24,742 bases of DNA from a virus. The position numbers and the translations under genes were made by a program. Positions 12,766 through 23,636 of the stretch are shown here, in pieces. Position 1 is the first letter of the stretch; each line of letters starts with the position of its first letter. Location: positions 1 to 24,742 of IMG/VR virus record IMGVR_UViG_3300030104_005080. One strand, 5' to 3'. The notes beneath the pieces are model-generated. The model saw nothing but the letters and a program-made list of their open reading frames with translations, did no database searches and had not been told where the DNA came from.

Positions 12766-13491
12766 ATGCCATTACCCAAGATTAACACGCCAACTTATGA
12801 GTTGACACTTCCTTCAAATAATAAGAAAATCAAATATCGACCATTTCTTGTTCGCGAAGAAAAAATATTAGTTCTTGCAATGGAGTCTGGAGATCAAAAA
12901 CAAATTTCCGATGCTATTGTAGAAATACTTTCTGAATGTATAATTACTAAAAATCTTGATATTACTAAACTTCCAACCTTTGATATTGAATATCTCTTTC
13001 TTAATGTTAGATCAAAATCAGTTGGTGAGACTGTAGAGGTGAATATTACTTGTCCTGATGATGGTAAGACTTCAATTGAAACTGCTATTAACATTGATGA
13101 TATTAAAGTTAAGAAAACAAAAGGACATAGTAATATTGTGAAAATCAATGATCAATATTCTATGAAACTAAAGTATCCTTCATTAGAACAATTCATAGAA
13201 AGTAATTTTGATTATGAGGAAGGTGATCTTGTTAATGTAAGTGAATCTCTTAATCTATTATCTACATGCATAGACATGGTATATGATAAAGAGGAAAGTT
13301 GGGATGCGAATGATTGTACTAGAGAAGAATTAGTTGAGTTTATTGAACAATTGAATACTAAACAGTTTAAGGATGTTGAGAAGTTTTTCTCTACGATGCC
13401 TAAACTTAGTCATCAACTTAAAGTAAAAAATCCTAATACAGGAGTTGAATCTAATGTTGTACTTGAGGGACTAGCAAGTTTTTTCAGTTAG
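12766..13491 (+). CDS. 26: Baseplate hub assembly protein gp26 (tape-measure chaperone type)
   Basis: This is a 241-residue protein of the T4 baseplate gp26 family. It starts LPKINTPTYELTLPSNNKKIKYRPFLVREEKILVLAMES, has ITCPDDGKTS in the middle and LKYPSLEQFIESNFD, and ends VLEGLASFFS. In T4, gp26 assists hub assembly and does not stay as a major virion part; its place before the tape-measure gene is that of a tail-assembly chaperone. The FF codons at the end form a T TTT TTC slippery site followed by a stem-loop, so a fraction of ribosomes should shift -1 into the next ORF and make a product of about 301 residues (12766-13670). Confidence 0.85.
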   Translation: MPLPKINTPTYELTLPSNNKKIKYRPFLVREEKILVLAMESGDQKQISDAIVEILSECIITKNLDITKLPTFDIEYLFLNVRSKSVGETVEVNITCPDDGKTSIETAINIDDIKVKKTKGHSNIVKINDQYSMKLKYPSLEQFIESNFDYEEGDLVNVSESLNLLSTCIDMVYDKEESWDANDCTREELVEFIEQLNTKQFKDVEKFFSTMPKLSHQLKVKNPNTGVESNVVLEGLASFFS

Positions 13492-13520
13492 GTATGGCTC
13501 ACCAGAATCTTGAGTCATAC
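13479..13520 (+). promoter_or_regulatory. Predicted programmed -1 ribosomal frameshift signal
   Basis: The zero-frame codons are AGT TTT TTC AGT TAG. The heptamer T TTT TTC (13479-13485) is a canonical X XXY YYZ site. A stem GTATGGCTC (13492-13500) with GAGTCATAC (13512-13520) follows after 6 nt: nine pairs with one G-U, extendable by another G-U (13491-13521), around an 11-nt loop. The -1 frame reads CAG TTA GGT and then the ATG of the gp51-like ORF with no stop. Confidence 0.75.
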
Positions 13521-13670
13521 TATAAACTTAACTTTGCTCTTATCCAACACCATAAATACTCATTAACAGAGATTGAAAATATGATGCCTTGGGAAAGGGA
13601 TGTTTATGTAACTCTGTTGAGACAGCATATAGAGGAAGAAAATTTAAAGGCACAACAAAGTGGCAATTAA
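13494..13670 (+). CDS. gp51-like small ORF, likely expressed as a gp26 frameshift fusion
   Basis: This ORF has 58 residues if started at ATG 13494: a helical N-terminal part (HQNLESYYKLNFALIQHHKYSLTEIE), then MMPWERDVYVTLLRQHIEEE and a short polar tail. The MPWERxxYxxLLxxxIEEE style is what the second part of frameshifted tail-assembly chaperones looks like in many phages. By position (after gp26, before the tape measure) it corresponds to T4 gp51. The frame is -1 to gp26 with no intervening stop, and no Shine-Dalgarno sequence precedes the ATG, both favouring synthesis by frameshift. Its 3' end overlaps the tape-measure gene by 11 nt. Confidence 0.7.
   Translation: MAHQNLESYYKLNFALIQHHKYSLTEIENMMPWERDVYVTLLRQHIEEENLKAQQSGN
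13551..13558 (+). promoter_or_regulatory. Possible late promoter box CATAAATA
   Basis: The CATAAATA box lies inside the gp51-like ORF, about 100 nt before the tape-measure GTG. It may be coincidental, because the codons CAC CAT AAA TAC create it. Confidence 0.25.
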
Positions 13671-15282
13671 TCCAGAAGTAGTATTACCCGGTGATACTAG
13701 AGCCAATAAACCTAAAATTAATGTAACCAACCTAAAGAGTGTTTTTCTTAACAATGGTGGTGGAGGAGGTCTTGCGACCACAGGAAAAGGTGGTTCTATG
13801 GTGCCATCATCTAAAAGTTCTATAGCTAAAGTTAATCCATCCAAATTACTACCACTACCTGATCAGGGATTACAACCACAAGCACAAGCACAAACATCAG
13901 ATTTAGCAGAGAGAGTACAAACAAATACGATTAAGATATCTAAGTTAATTGATATTAATAGACTTCATAGAGAGAATCATCAGAAAGACAGAGTTGAATT
14001 TGTAAAATTAACAAATGTAGTTCAGGAAATATCTAAATCATTCCAAAAAGATCTTGATGATCGTAAAGATGCAAAGCAAAAAGAAAAAGAGGAATTAGCA
14101 AAACAGAAAGCAAAGGAAGCACAGGAAGAGGCAGAGTCGGAACTTGAGTCAAAAGATACTAAGGACACTGGAAAAGCAATTGGAGATAAAACTAAAAAGT
14201 TTGTAAATCCTTTTAGTGGTATACTTCAAAAATTGAAGAGTGCTGTGATGGCAATAGGTGCTGGTATTCTTGCTAATGCTGCGTTTAAGTATTTGGGTGA
14301 TCCTGCTAACTATGAAACCATAAACAAAGTATTCGGATTCATACAAAAACATTGGAAGTGGGTCATGGGTGGACTTGGAGCAATTGCAGTTATTGCTCTT
14401 GCTGCACCATTAGTTGCGATTGCTGGAACTATTGGTAGTGTTATTGCTGCAGTTGCTGGTATAGCAGTTGTTCTTGCAAAAGTTGCATTGGCAATAGGTG
14501 CGATTGTTGGTATTATTATGGGAGCAAAGGCTATATTCAGATGGTTAAGAGGTGGTAAAGAAGCAGCAGAAGCAAGACAAGCAAATAGAGCAGCGTTAGA
14601 TGCTGCAGGGATCAAGCGAACAAGAAATAAATTTGGTAGAAAAGGATTTGACGTAATGAGAGATGGTAAGAAGACATTTGTTAAATATGAAAATTTAACT
14701 GAAACCGAGAAGGAAGCAGTTGATAAGTTTAATGCAGAAGATCAAAGAATTAAAGATGTAACTAAAGATAGAAATAAAGCATCTAAAGAAAGAAAAAAAG
14801 CAATAAGAACTGAAAGATTGGGTAGTGATGAATATGCAGCAATACAGGCAATGCCTAAAGGTAAGGAAAAACGTATAGCATTAGATAATTTTAAAGCAGA
14901 AACTATAAGACTTCAAAATGAATCTGATAAGGAAACTGCAAAGGAATTTGGAGATAAAATGAGTAGTGAATCTCTCATCTCAAGAAAAATAGGTGGTGAT
15001 ACGATGGGAAGATCAATAGTAGGTGAGGATGGCCCTGAGATAGTTGATTTTAGAACTCCAACTTCAATTAAGAGAGCACAAACAACGCAAGATATATTGA
15101 AAGATATGTCTAGTGGTGGTGGAGGAGTGCAAATTATTAATCAGGAACTACCTCCAATTACTGCAGATATACCTGCTATAAAAGTGGGATCTACCCCTGC
15201 AACATCAATTGATGCTGTTAATCCAATAAATCCATTTAATGGATATATGTCATTAGTTCCAGAACTACTTAGTATAGAATAA
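13660..15282 (+). CDS. Tail tape-measure-like protein (gp29-like)
   Basis: This is a 540-residue protein, close to T4 gp29 (590). Order: a Gly/Ser/Pro-rich N-terminus; a predicted coiled coil at about 85-175 (RVQTNTIKISKLIDINRL, then KEKEELAKQKAKEAQEEAE); a strongly hydrophobic segment at about 225-295 (VIALAAPLVAIAGTIGSVIAA and AIGAIVGIIMGAKAI); a basic helical region; and a C-terminal SIVGEDGPEIVDFRTPTSI. The VGEDGPE motif is typical of tape-measure C-termini. The start is GTG at 13660 (TGGCAATTAA overlaps the previous stop). It would set tail length and carry membrane-active segments for DNA entry. Confidence 0.7.
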   Translation: MAINPEVVLPGDTRANKPKINVTNLKSVFLNNGGGGGLATTGKGGSMVPSSKSSIAKVNPSKLLPLPDQGLQPQAQAQTSDLAERVQTNTIKISKLIDINRLHRENHQKDRVEFVKLTNVVQEISKSFQKDLDDRKDAKQKEKEELAKQKAKEAQEEAESELESKDTKDTGKAIGDKTKKFVNPFSGILQKLKSAVMAIGAGILANAAFKYLGDPANYETINKVFGFIQKHWKWVMGGLGAIAVIALAAPLVAIAGTIGSVIAAVAGIAVVLAKVALAIGAIVGIIMGAKAIFRWLRGGKEAAEARQANRAALDAAGIKRTRNKFGRKGFDVMRDGKKTFVKYENLTETEKEAVDKFNAEDQRIKDVTKDRNKASKERKKAIRTERLGSDEYAAIQAMPKGKEKRIALDNFKAETIRLQNESDKETAKEFGDKMSSESLISRKIGGDTMGRSIVGEDGPEIVDFRTPTSIKRAQTTQDILKDMSSGGGGVQIINQELPPITADIPAIKVGSTPATSIDAVNPINPFNGYMSLVPELLSIE

Positions 15283-16736
15283 TGCCATTACCAGCAATTG
15301 CAGCAGTAGTAGGAAAGATTGGAGCAGTAGCAGGAAAAGCTGCTGTAGTAGCGGCTAAAGCTGGAGTAAAAGCAACTGCTGTAGCAACGAAGGGTGTAGC
15401 AAAAGCATCTATAAAAGGTGCAAAAGTTGCTGGAAAGACATCTGTAAAAGGTGCAAAAACTGCTGGAAAGAAATCAACTAAGATAAGTTCAAGAACTTTA
15501 AAATCTCAGTTGAAAAAAGGATTAAGCGGTCTTGATAAGAAGAGAAAACAAACTAGAGCTTTTACTGAAAAACTTATAGAAGAGAGAGATCGTAGAAAAG
15601 AAGAACGTGAAAATGAAAAGAAGAATAAGTTAAAACCAAGTAAATCTCCTGTTGCTAAAAAGGGTGGTGACATCTTTAGTAAAATGATGGGAGTTGCTGC
15701 TGCCTTGGTGGGTGCTTTAATAATAAAAGAATTACCTAGAATAATTGAGGTAGTTAAAAATATTATTGGAAAGGTCAAACCATTTTTCATCACTGTTGGA
15801 AATGCGATTGGAAAGGTTGTCAACTTCTTAACAGGGTTTTCTCCTGAAAGTGATGGATATGAAGAGCAAAAAGCAGCTGCAGATGGGGAAATATTAAACG
15901 CACAAGGTTCTGCTGATAAAATTACAGAAAATGATAAAGTCTTACAAAAAGAAAAGACAAGTATTGATGATCAAAGTAAATCTTTAAGAGATCAAACTTC
16001 TAAATTAGAATCTTCTAGTAGTGATGACACTGTAGGTAAAACGAGTTCGGAGTCTGAAGATCAAGCAACTATCAATAAAGATGCTAAAGACGACAACGAA
16101 AACAAAGAAAATAAAGATGATTCTTCAGTAGATAAAACTGTAAAAAATAAAAAGGTAGATAGTAAGAAAGTATTTGATTCGTCTCATTTTGGAACAGAAG
16201 GATATAGAATGGGTCAAGTTATGCCAGAACAATATATCTACGGTAAGGACACATATACATCCACTTACATGGAAAAAGATGGTAAGGTTATCAAAAATGA
16301 AGAAACTTTAACTGAATTGATGGGTTCTATCGCAACTGAAGATTTATTAAAACATCAGAAGCAATTGATGGGTGAGATTAATAAGGTAAAGGGTTATGAA
16401 AATGCTAATATTATTGATGTTATAGAGCGTGTTGAGGATAAAGGGAGACTTGTATCTATGCCAGATGAAGTTCTTTATCCTATTCTTAATAATAGTGATG
16501 CATACAAAGCAACGGAAGCGAAAATAGATGCAGCAAGGAAGATTGATAAAAAGGCTGGAACTTTATACTTAGATCCAAGAGAAACTATGAAAATAATTGA
16601 TTTTAATACTAAAAAGAAAAATTTAGAGGCGTTAAATAATACAGATAATCTAACTTCAATTAATGGTAATGGCAAAACCATTATTATCAAGCAAAGACAG
16701 ATCGTTGAAAAAGTAGTTCCAGTATCAACCCCATAA
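15282..16736 (+). CDS. Second tape-measure-like structural protein
   Basis: This is a 484-residue protein. Residues 1-70 are Ala/Lys/Gly-rich with repeats of the form KGAKVAGKTSVKGAKTAGK. A basic coiled-coil-like stretch follows (KLIEERDRRKEERENEKKNK), then a hydrophobic segment at about 130-175 (MMGVAAALVGALIIKELPRII), a long Ser/Asp/Lys linker, and a C-terminal domain ending KTIIIKQRQIVEKVVPV. The helix / membrane segment / linker layout parallels the preceding gene, so the two may be partners or paralogues. The start overlaps the previous stop by one base. It occupies the place of T4 gene 28 relative to 27 but shows no likeness I can see. Confidence 0.6.
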   Translation: MPLPAIAAVVGKIGAVAGKAAVVAAKAGVKATAVATKGVAKASIKGAKVAGKTSVKGAKTAGKKSTKISSRTLKSQLKKGLSGLDKKRKQTRAFTEKLIEERDRRKEERENEKKNKLKPSKSPVAKKGGDIFSKMMGVAAALVGALIIKELPRIIEVVKNIIGKVKPFFITVGNAIGKVVNFLTGFSPESDGYEEQKAAADGEILNAQGSADKITENDKVLQKEKTSIDDQSKSLRDQTSKLESSSSDDTVGKTSSESEDQATINKDAKDDNENKENKDDSSVDKTVKNKKVDSKKVFDSSHFGTEGYRMGQVMPEQYIYGKDTYTSTYMEKDGKVIKNEETLTELMGSIATEDLLKHQKQLMGEINKVKGYENANIIDVIERVEDKGRLVSMPDEVLYPILNNSDAYKATEAKIDAARKIDKKAGTLYLDPRETMKIIDFNTKKKNLEALNNTDNLTSINGNGKTIIIKQRQIVEKVVPVSTP

Positions 16737-16739
16737 TAT

Positions 16740-17999
16740 ATGTCAAGAGGAGCATCGCTATCATCCACATATGAGCTTATTACCATTATTAAAGATGGTA
16801 AACAGGCTCCGTTGGAAGGAAAAACTATAAACTTTAACTATTATGAAAGTCTATACTCACCTGTTGTCACTGCAAATTTGACATACGTTGATGCTGGTGG
16901 ATCCACTCCTGATAAGAAAGATAAACTTACAAGTATTAAAGACGGATTGCCTATCACTGGTTTGGAAGACGTAAAGGTAAAGATAGCTCATCCTTCAGGC
17001 ACATTAGATTTTACAAGAGTTCCTTTTAAAGTAAATAACGCACCTGTTTTAAGTCGAGAGTCAAACAGACAGGCTGTCATGTTAAATCTAGTGAGTCCAT
17101 TAGAAATTAAAAATTCAGAGATTCCACTTTTTGATAAGTTCAGTGGAAAAATAAGTGATACTGTTACTAAAATATTACTTGAAAAGTTGGGACTATCTCA
17201 AGATAAAATAGATGTTGAATCAACAAAAAACGATTATGCTTTTGTTGGAAAGGGTAAAGGTGCATTAACTTTAGTATTAGATTTAATGAGAAGATCTGTA
17301 AAGACGAAAGGTGATGCAGGATATTTTTTCTTTCAGACGCAAGAGAAATTTAATTTTAAATCAATAGATACTTTATTAGAGCAGGAACCGAAACAAACAT
17401 ATACTTATTCTGGTGCACTAAGAGCAAATCCAGAAAATGCTGATAATGATTTTAAAATTTTGATGGAACCAACGGTAATCAAAGATCAGGATATAACCAA
17501 AGCTTTGAAGAATGGAACGTATGTAAATCGAAACATATTTTTTGATCCAAGAACCTTTGAATATACTGAATTTACTTTTAGTATTGATAAGGATGGTGTA
17601 AAGAAAACTCTTGGTGGAGAACCACCATTAAAGGGTAAGTTGAAAGGTTTTACAAAAACTAATCATCATATTTTGGATATTGGTAGTTTTGATGTTCAGA
17701 GAATAACTCCCAATAATGATCCAAGGGAGTGGCAAGCAACTTCTACTATGAGATACAATCTTCTACATTCTCAGGTTATGAATATTATGGTTCCATGTAA
17801 TCTTAAGTTAAATGCTGGAGATGTCATAAAACTATCAATAGAAACTATCTCTGAAGAGAAAGAACAGGGTATTGAAGATGAGTTGCAAAGTGGAAATTAT
17901 TTGATATTACACTTGTGTCATCATTTTGATAGTAAAAGATCATTTACATCAATGACACTCGCTCGTGATACATATGGTAAGAGGAGGAAAAATCAATGA
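16740..17999 (+). CDS. 27: Baseplate hub protein gp27
   Basis: This is a 419-residue protein (T4 gp27 has 391). It starts with a beta-rich domain (ASLSSTYELITIIKDGKQAPLEGKTINFNYYESLYSPVVTANLTYVDAG) with PVLSRESNRQAVMLNLVSPLEIKN, and later has MRYNLLHSQVMNIMVPCNLKLNAGDVIKL and GNYLILHLCHHFDSKRSFTSMTLARDTYG. This is the layout of gp27-like hub proteins, whose trimer forms the pseudo-hexameric ring that carries the gp5 spike. It is followed by gp5 with an ATGA overlap, as expected for interacting partners. Confidence 0.85.
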   Translation: MSRGASLSSTYELITIIKDGKQAPLEGKTINFNYYESLYSPVVTANLTYVDAGGSTPDKKDKLTSIKDGLPITGLEDVKVKIAHPSGTLDFTRVPFKVNNAPVLSRESNRQAVMLNLVSPLEIKNSEIPLFDKFSGKISDTVTKILLEKLGLSQDKIDVESTKNDYAFVGKGKGALTLVLDLMRRSVKTKGDAGYFFFQTQEKFNFKSIDTLLEQEPKQTYTYSGALRANPENADNDFKILMEPTVIKDQDITKALKNGTYVNRNIFFDPRTFEYTEFTFSIDKDGVKKTLGGEPPLKGKLKGFTKTNHHILDIGSFDVQRITPNNDPREWQATSTMRYNLLHSQVMNIMVPCNLKLNAGDVIKLSIETISEEKEQGIEDELQSGNYLILHLCHHFDSKRSFTSMTLARDTYGKRRKNQ

Positions 18000-20910: not shown

Positions 20911-21441
20911 ATGTCACAAGAATCAAAACAACTTGAATTATTTGGAGGAAAACTCCTTTTTGAAACAGGTGCAACCGAGATGCATAATCCCGGCCCTGCT
21001 GCATATATCATGGCATCCCAGACTGAAGATAAGTTAAAGTACAGTCAAAGTTTTCATGAGGGTAGTGGATTAGCAAGATTTTATGCTGATAAAACACTAC
21101 AGGTTGAGTCTGGTGTGAGATCACAATCAAATGAGAAAGGTTTTGTACTTCGTGTTAAGAATGGTGATTGTTGTGTAAATACTGAAAATGGTAATGTAGC
21201 TTTAAGTGGAAATCAAATTACAATTGAGGCATATGATGAATTAGTTTTACAGGCACCGAAAATTAGAATTGGTTATGCAGATGGATCTACTGACGATGTT
21301 AAAATTGTGAGTAGTAAAATATTTTTACAGGCAGGATCTTTATGTAAACTAAGAAATAAAATTATGTATAGTAATGTCTTTGGATCTTTCTTAGGTGCAT
21401 ATGTTAGTGCAAACAAATGGTATAGTAGTCTTCCCGGATAA
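20911..21441 (+). CDS. Beta-helix-like spike tip protein (gp5 C-terminal-like)
   Basis: This is a 176-residue, beta-rich protein with short alternating strands: FVLRVKNGDCCVNTENGNVALSGN, then QITIEAYDELVLQAPKIRIGYADGS and VKIVSSKIFLQAGSLCKLRNK. The run of ENGNVAL, ITIEAYDELVLQAPKIRI and IVSSKIFLQAG resembles the stacked strands of triple-stranded beta-helix needles in gp5 and VgrG spikes. It may be the membrane-puncturing needle that the short gp5-like protein lacks. Two adjacent Cys (about residues 89-90) could bind metal or pair. Tip status is inferred. Confidence 0.6.
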   Translation: MSQESKQLELFGGKLLFETGATEMHNPGPAAYIMASQTEDKLKYSQSFHEGSGLARFYADKTLQVESGVRSQSNEKGFVLRVKNGDCCVNTENGNVALSGNQITIEAYDELVLQAPKIRIGYADGSTDDVKIVSSKIFLQAGSLCKLRNKIMYSNVFGSFLGAYVSANKWYSSLPG

Positions 21442-23636
21442 TGATTTTACCAGTTAATCAACAAGGATTATATCAGAATGGAAACTCCATATTCGATGAT
21501 GTTCACGTCCTCGGAACTCTTCATTGTGATTTTCAAATCGGTGCTGGTATAGTAACTGCAACTACATTTATTGGTGATGGATCTCAATTAACAGGTATTG
21601 ATGCTTCGACAATAAAAGATGCTAACGGAAATACACAAATACAGGGAACTTTAACTGGTGCAACACATTCAGGTCGTGCAGTATTTAATGAGCTAGAAGT
21701 AGGTGGAAAATTATATGATGGTGATGGTGACTTTGGAACATCGGGTCAGGTATTAGCATCTGATGGTACCAATACAAACTGGGTAAATACTGGAGATCTC
21801 ACTGCTGGAGCAGCATCAGAGGTAGGTGTTACTGCAACTAATGCTAATGCTGGTCATTTTATAACATTTGTAGATTCATCATCTGGTAATGAAAATATAA
21901 AAGTTGATAGCGATTTATCATATAATCCAAGCACAAATACTTTATCGTCATTGAATATTGCTGGAGCAGTAATTACAGGTAATCTAACATTAAATGGCGA
22001 ACTTCGTGATGGTTCTGGTAGTTTTGGTACGTCAGGTCAGGTGTTATCATCTGATGGAACTGATACTGCATGGGTAAATACTGGAGATCTTACTGCTGGT
22101 GCAGCATCAGAGGTAGGTGTTACTGCAACTAATGCTAATGCTACTCATTTCATTTCATTCGTTGATTCATCATCTGGTAATGAAAATATAAAAGTTGATA
22201 CTAACTTAACATATAATCCTTCTTCAAATACATTAATTGCAAACATATTTAGTGGAACTGCGACACAAGCATCAAATTTGAATAACCATGATACAGATGG
22301 TTTGAGTGAGGGTTCCTCTAACTTATATTTCACAGATGCTCGTGCTCGTTCATCAATTAGTGTTAGTGGTGATCTAAGTTACAATAGTGGAACTGGTGTT
22401 ATTTCGTATAATGACTCAGCAGCAGGTGTTCCTAGTCAAATAACTGTTGCTGATGAATCATCTGATACATCTTGTTTTCTATTGTATGCAACAGCTGCTA
22501 CAGGTAATCTTCAACCAAAGACTGGTAGTAATCTTGTATTTAATTCATCAAACGGAGTTTTAACTGCAACCAATTTTTCTGGTGGTGGTTCAAATATAAC
22601 AAATATAGATGCAGCTAATATTGCTACTGGTACAATAAATGCTGCAAGAATACCTAATCTAGCAGCAAGTAAAATTACCTCTGGCACATTAGGTGCTGAT
22701 AGGATACCTAATCTAGCAGCAAGTAAAATTACTTCTGGCACATTAGGTGCTGATAGGATACCTAATCTAGCAGCAAGTAAAATTACCTCTGGCACATTAG
22801 GAACTGCAAGAATACCTAATTTAAACGCAAGTAAGATTAATGCTGGAACATTATCAGATGCTAGATTACCAAGTTCAATTTCTTCTGATATTACAGGTAA
22901 TGCTGCAACTGCATCCATACTTGCTATTGCGAGAACTATTGCAGGTGCTAGTTTTAATGGATCGTCAGATGTTAATATCAATTACAATAATTTAACGAAT
23001 TTACCCACTATACCAACTAATACAAACCAACTTACAAATGGCTCTGGATTTATAACAGCTGCCATGACTGGTAACAGTAGAATTACTGTTAGGACATCAG
23101 GATCTGGTACACATACCACTCAATCATTCTGTCGAACTGTAGTAGCAGTTATGGTTGGTGGAGGTGGTGGAGGAGGAAGTGCTCGTTACTTCGATGATGA
23201 TGATGATGGAACTTCTCAAGGTAGAGGTGGATCTGGTGGATCTGGTGGTGTTAAATTCCATACACAAAATACAAGTGGATCGACTAATATTTCATTCTCT
23301 GTTGGTGGCGGTGGTGGAGTTAATGTAAGTGGTAGTTGTGATGATAATGCTGCTAGTGGTGGATCTGGTGGAACTACTAGTTTTGGTGGTTCTTCCGCAG
23401 GTGGAGGTGGTGGTGGTCAAGGAACTAACTTTGGTTCAGGATCTGGTGGATCTGGTGGATCTGGTGATTTACCCGGAGCTGCAGGGGGAACTGCTACTTC
23501 AACTCCTGCACCTTTCTGGGGTAAATTTGGTACTGGTGGTAAAGGTGGTATTGGACAGGCAGGAAATGATTCAGGATGTAGTGTTGGTCAGCAATCTGGT
23601 CAAGGAGGTGCTATAATTATATTAGAACTTGGATAA
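21441..23636 (+). CDS. Repeat-rich tail fibre with glycine-rich adhesin C-terminus
   Basis: This is a 731-residue protein. The N-terminal part (DVHVLGTLHCDFQIGAGIVT, then FIGDGSQLTGIDA) is a fibre-type start. Two copies of a roughly 80-residue unit (DFGTSGQVLASDGTNTNWVN through SYNPSTNTL) follow at a 97-residue period. An 18-residue repeat IPNLAASKITSGTLGADR occurs about four times at residues 404-475. The final 190 residues form a polyglycine domain with MVGGGGGGGS, SVGGGGGVNVSGS, SAGGGGGGQG and terminal GGAIIILELG, as in glycine-rich phage adhesins. It likely binds host surface structures. It overlaps the previous stop by one base. Confidence 0.75.
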   Translation: MILPVNQQGLYQNGNSIFDDVHVLGTLHCDFQIGAGIVTATTFIGDGSQLTGIDASTIKDANGNTQIQGTLTGATHSGRAVFNELEVGGKLYDGDGDFGTSGQVLASDGTNTNWVNTGDLTAGAASEVGVTATNANAGHFITFVDSSSGNENIKVDSDLSYNPSTNTLSSLNIAGAVITGNLTLNGELRDGSGSFGTSGQVLSSDGTDTAWVNTGDLTAGAASEVGVTATNANATHFISFVDSSSGNENIKVDTNLTYNPSSNTLIANIFSGTATQASNLNNHDTDGLSEGSSNLYFTDARARSSISVSGDLSYNSGTGVISYNDSAAGVPSQITVADESSDTSCFLLYATAATGNLQPKTGSNLVFNSSNGVLTATNFSGGGSNITNIDAANIATGTINAARIPNLAASKITSGTLGADRIPNLAASKITSGTLGADRIPNLAASKITSGTLGTARIPNLNASKINAGTLSDARLPSSISSDITGNAATASILAIARTIAGASFNGSSDVNINYNNLTNLPTIPTNTNQLTNGSGFITAAMTGNSRITVRTSGSGTHTTQSFCRTVVAVMVGGGGGGGSARYFDDDDDGTSQGRGGSGGSGGVKFHTQNTSGSTNISFSVGGGGGVNVSGSCDDNAASGGSGGTTSFGGSSAGGGGGGQGTNFGSGSGGSGGSGDLPGAAGGTATSTPAPFWGKFGTGGKGGIGQAGNDSGCSVGQQSGQGGAIIILELG
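21714..22244 (+). repeat. Two-copy in-frame direct repeat, 291-bp period
   Basis: Copies at about 21714-21953 and 22005-22244 encode near-identical segments (GTSGQVL.SDGT, VNTGDLTAGAASEVGVTATN, VDSSSGNENIKVD). The second half of each copy is almost identical at DNA level. Confidence 0.8.
22650..22865 (+). repeat. 54-bp in-frame tandem repeat, about four copies
   Basis: Units begin at 22650, 22704, 22758 and 22812. The first three are nearly identical at DNA level (18 codons each, IPNLAASKITSGTLGADR) and the fourth is diverged. Such arrays change copy number by slippage or recombination. Confidence 0.85.

Follow-up and report, generated by a model that had tools for sequence, protein, structure and literature searches.

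The question raised by this locus is whether gp26 and the gp51-like open reading frame that follows it are two genes, or a single gene from which two proteins are made. The locus lies in a 24,742-nucleotide stretch of viral DNA (positions 1 to 24,742 of IMG/VR record IMGVR_UViG_3300030104_005080), here called the window, and the features from gp26 to the frame downstream of the gp51-like one are on its + strand. A preliminary description of the window proposed that the two frames are joined by a programmed -1 frameshift. We consider it very probable that gp26 and the gp51-like frame are one gene encoding two proteins in this way, namely a short and a long tail-assembly chaperone.

The gp26 gene (12766-13491, the 0 frame) encodes 241 amino acids and matched both PF12322, T4_baseplate (E = 6.9e-74), and phrog_150 (1.1e-80). 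Its 3' end reads AGT TTT TTC AGT TAG, which places the heptamer T TTT TTC (13479-13485) in the X XXY YYZ phase expected of a canonical -1 slippery site. The preliminary description had the heptamer and its phase right, but put it 4 nt before the gp26 stop; the gap to the TAG, which begins at 13489, is one codon, ie 3 nt. The 6-nt spacer it gave is present as AGTTAG (13486-13491) and contains the 0-frame stop (13489-13491). TTTTTTC occurs in phase twice more among the 7,790 codons of the window, so the heptamer alone proves nothing and conservation has to decide. Those other copies, at 17324 and 8226, one of them within a phrog_350 tail-protein frame, are probably there by chance.

Relatives were collected from marine T4-like contigs, pelagiphages, and phages of Sinorhizobium, Stenotrophomonas, Vibrio, Aeromonas and Cronobacter. 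Among the first 80 loci, 78 extend to the junction, and all 78 have an in-phase TTTTTTC and carry the extension in the -1 frame; the 0-frame stop varied between TAG, TGA and TAA while the heptamer was unchanged. Wider scans, together with annotated phages, gave 297 complete junctions, of which 202 were non-redundant as judged by shared 9-mers. These 202 were selected as carriers of the T6 heptamer, the only sequences excluded for its absence being the T4 group and two Ackermannviridae-like phages, Menlow and K476; they are related sequences, and counts among them are not independent events. With that selection, T TTT TTN was in phase in 202/202 (186 TTTTTTC, 15 TTTTTTT and 1 TTTTTTG), so the alignment of relatives suggested in the preliminary description bore out both heptamer and phase. 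The codon supplying the first T (AGT, TCT, GAT, GCT, AAT or GGT) ended in T in every case, although the residue encoded differed (Ser, Asp, Ala, Asn or Gly). As a control, Phe-Phe pairs elsewhere in the same genes were spelled TTT TTC in only 7 of 213 cases, and T TTT TTC in 3 of 213. In pelagiphages the 0-frame stop is 7 codons farther downstream, yet the heptamer remains with the extension. A sequencing or assembly error that split one gene is scarcely conceivable, since the same junction recurs in all 297 complete loci, and cultured phages have it too; the relatives had already refuted it.

The -1 frame reads QLGMAHQNLESYYK... and is open from 13485 to 13667 (61 codons), with a TAA at 13668-13670. 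The fusion would therefore have 240 + 61 = 301 residues, the approximate length predicted earlier, and the frame runs as described into a 58-codon frame that begins at an ATG at 13494. The whole extension (13485-13670 with its stop) matched phrog_634 ('baseplate hub assembly catalyst') at 2.4e-29; it also matched the C-terminus of phrog_150 (4.1e-06), and in the long chaperone it would form a C-terminal domain resembling gp51. Stops in the -1 frame of relatives, named beforehand as grounds for giving up the proposal, were found in none of the 202, where the extension is 53 to 68 codons long. Substitutions in this frame within the window clade fell mostly at third codon positions (15,191, against 6,787 at first and 1,953 at second positions), the pattern of a conserved frame under protein-level selection.

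The same extension was found in phages for which gp51 is unannotated or was reported missing: in Cronobacter S13, Aeh1 and Vibrio vB_VmeM-32 (loci L089, L090 and L320) it is present in the -1 frame 3' of gp26. The -1 frames of Aeh1 and Cronobacter S13, neither with an annotated gp51, matched phrog_634 at 1.1e-13 and 3.5e-10, respectively. Several Ackermannviridae gp26 genes (L093:2789-2962, L322, L323, L324 and L327) end ..TT TTC AT[TC] TAA, a sequence without the canonical heptamer. These phages have a conserved -1 frame after gp26 which matched phrog_9633 (9.5e-31) and, in Menlow, phrog_634 (2.6e-4); it has no ATG start in Menlow, Maynard and Kevin, and a TAATG in phiDP10.3 and CAU_YEP3.

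The frame usually annotated as gp51 is the 58-residue open reading frame starting at ATG 13494 (13494-13670). Were gp26 and gp51 two separate genes, with gp51 made from this ATG by termination-reinitiation and the T run a coincidence, the position of the ATG would be well suited: it lies 2 nt past the gp26 stop (TAG-GT-ATG) in most of the relatives that have one, and it is kept in 41 of the 44 members of the window clade. However, 75 of the 202 relatives have no ATG, GTG or TTG ahead of the conserved core, including all 45 of the pelagiphage type and 15 of the 17 of the syn9 type, and most of these 75 would lose at least 6 core residues if translation began at the next start codon. In those phages the whole -1 product can therefore be made only as a fusion. 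Two separate genes would also leave unexplained the invariant heptamer and the selected hairpin described below, and we regard that arrangement as very unlikely. The expectation that gp51 is made mainly as a fusion thus held for the 75 start-less relatives, where the fusion is the sole full-length form; where an ATG such as that at 13494 exists, it may or may not hold. In lineages with the ATG both routes might operate, frameshifting giving the fusion and reinitiation some of the gp51 domain in free form. All the frameshift features coexist there with an ATG conserved at a fixed distance; against this, the Met replaces a Leu or Phe of relatives, so that its hydrophobic character may be all that is conserved, and no good Shine-Dalgarno match was found before the gp51 ATG. 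On balance the use of both routes seems unlikely. If it did occur, stop-start reinitiation would add a putative third product, the free gp51 domain, to the short chaperone and the long one made by frameshifting. Two recoding routes at a single junction would then tune tail assembly, a reading that we likewise consider unlikely.

A frameshift by the ribosome is commonly stimulated by a downstream structure about 5-9 nt from the slippery site, and one begins here 6 nt after the heptamer. The 9-10 bp stem-loop noted earlier proved to be a 10-bp stem, including one G-U pair, with a 9-nt loop (13492-13520), its 5' arm being GTATGGCTCA (13492-13501) and its 3' arm TGAGTCATAC (13511-13520), within CTT GAG TCA TAC. 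The 43 nt after the heptamer were folded and compared with reshuffled synonymous codons of the -1 frame. The folding energy of the window sequence had a z-score of about -4, and the means were -3.8 for the window group, -3.2 for the P-SSM2 group, -1.3 for pelagiphages and -0.6 for the syn9 group, against -0.3 to -0.5 for control regions in the same test. Wobble bases in the stem were Watson-Crick paired in 202 of 266 cases in the window clade, where 99.7 were expected. The compensatory stem changes that the preliminary description hoped to see among relatives were not found, column-wise covariation in the stem giving no signal beyond that of shuffles, and the claim made for the hairpin is therefore one of synonymous constraint and not of compensatory change. 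A single universal hairpin was rejected, as pelagiphages tend to form a stem whose register is offset by 4 nt and the syn9 clade lacks one. In the window clade the hairpin is under selection at synonymous sites, but it is not universal.

The T run itself could change the frame in another manner, through slippage of RNA polymerase. The homopolymer is T6, and T7 in some relatives; T6 is short for transcriptional slippage. A selected hairpin at a fixed spacing of 5-6 nt fits stimulation of the ribosome instead, and slippage by the polymerase is accordingly most improbable. The signal, its phase, the conserved coding potential, the synonymous selection on the hairpin and the fusion's homology to T4 gp51 are all established at the level of sequence; that frameshifting takes place, with what efficiency, and that its products act as chaperones, we infer. 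In the mechanism proposed, most ribosomes would stop at the TAG and release the short tail-assembly chaperone. A minority would be slowed by the hairpin, and tRNA-Phe on the TTT and TTC of T TTT TTC would slip back by one base to read TTT TTT. The slipped ribosomes would go on in the -1 frame to produce the 301-residue long chaperone, which ends in the gp51 domain. If the pair works as lambda gpG/gpGT does, the two forms might both coat the tape-measure protein, whose gene would come next, while the additional domain might recruit components of the tail tube or hub.

The -1 frame ends 11 nt inside the downstream frame (GTG at 13660; 13660-15282, 540 residues), an overlap with the next frame that agrees with what had been claimed; the identity of that frame as the tape-measure gene is less firm. 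It matched a tape-measure family, phrog_15478, weakly (2e-4) and an 'endolysin' family better, while its translation contains hydrophobic and charged helical segments, and it is probably the tape-measure protein. It adjoins a second frame (15282-16736, 484 residues) at a place where syn9 has a single frame of 1,111 residues, so that the tape-measure gene is possibly split in two in this lineage. Elsewhere in the window, tandem near-identical units (LAASKITSGTLGADRIPN) occur at 22600-22980, within the translation of the frame at 21441-23636. No psbA was found in the record, which is a fragment of 50.8 kb.

The AlphaFold2 model of gp26 (pLDDT 89) was compared with known structures using Foldseek. 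Among the matches listed, the PDB entries of highest probability were 2ob9_B, the HK97 tail-assembly chaperone (0.60), and the related 3fgx_A (0.54), both weak with E > 1; these predicted likenesses are supportive, not proof. Comparison of a T4 gp51 model gave no useful match and none to an HK97-type chaperone, and searching PDB sequences with gp26 and T4 gp51 returned nothing relevant. The coding arrangement and the homology to T4 gp26 and gp51 both give a short form and a long form sharing an N-terminus, the long one with an extra C-terminal domain. The best reading is that gp26 and gp51 are a pair of short and long tail-assembly chaperones like lambda gpG/gpGT, whose action on the tape measure (PMC5009743) is the source of the analogy by which the present pair would act on theirs.

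In T4 itself gp26 and gp51 both matched PF12322, and T4 gp51 covers positions 13 to 280 of the 282 in phrog_150, ie the gp26 part plus the extension. When the two were aligned, the end of gp26 fell at the former slip site of T4 gp51. T4 gp26 ends GAG TTC TTT GAG, which is non-slippery, and gp25 comes next. By sequence, then, T4 gp26 and gp51 are paralogues, gp51 being a gp26-like domain with the same extension, and T4 encodes in two genes what the window phage would produce by frameshifting. T4 gp51 was matched over its full or nearly full length in more than 1,300 phage records, and Pseudotevenviruses such as EC-F2 carry the long and short genes in tandem. In the window, none of the nine proteins scanned was a second PF12322 protein; its gp51 consists of the extension only, and the long form has no full-length gene of its own. 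T4-like phages thus fall into two sets, one encoding the pair through a frameshift and one having a paralogous gene for each member. In Acinetobacter phage ZZ1 (L319) the T4-type gp51 is broken between frames near the N-terminal third and the annotated CDS starts late, which is due either to a sequencing error or to recoding.

Several earlier statements can be read in this light. T4 has long been counted as departing from the G/GT frameshift rule (PMC5009743, 2016). T4 gp51 is essential, is required but absent from the final particle, and has its function listed as unknown (PMC3004832). Cyanophage gp51 was described as about 20% of normal length, and gp51 as missing in Aeh1 (PMC3037559, 2010); both descriptions would follow because the gp51 part sits in the -1 frame after gp26. 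T4-like phages would then obey the G/GT rule after all, T4 having swapped the frameshift for two paralogous genes, and gp26 and gp51 would be mis-split in hundreds of public genomes.

Tail-assembly chaperones were reportedly assigned to T4-like phages by Vladimirov, Gautam and Davidson (Virology 2022, 566:9-15), several groups using a frameshift and the group of T4 having separate genes. A passage in a paper citing that work describes poly-T frameshift signals as known in the TAC-N genes of T4-like phages. The TAC-N/TAC-NC genes are of the same family as the window pair. The doubt expressed in the preliminary description, whether this had been described for T4-type cyanophages, is answered to the extent that the mechanism was already reported for T4-like phages, and the window junction is therefore a well-supported further member and not a discovery. 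Added here are the constraint on the hairpin, the counts of absent start codons, the Phe-Phe controls and the pelagiphage variants. Compared with T4, the proteins are homologous and gp51 is a gp26-like domain with the same extension, but in T4 the two genes lie on opposite strands and gp26 ends with TTC TTT, which is not slippery. The tail-assembly chaperone frameshift of Vandenendeviridae and Andersonviridae (phage Adele, PMC12846349) resembles the present one in its poly-T slip site, its -1 frame open in all genomes and its position before the tape measure, in the window a probable one; it differs in using a GTTTTT motif and in belonging to other phage families. Lambda gpG/gpGT shares the short and long forms, a -1 slip shortly before the short frame stops, and the order ahead of the tape measure, which in the window is the probable one; its slippery sequence is another, and the window proteins belong to PF12322.
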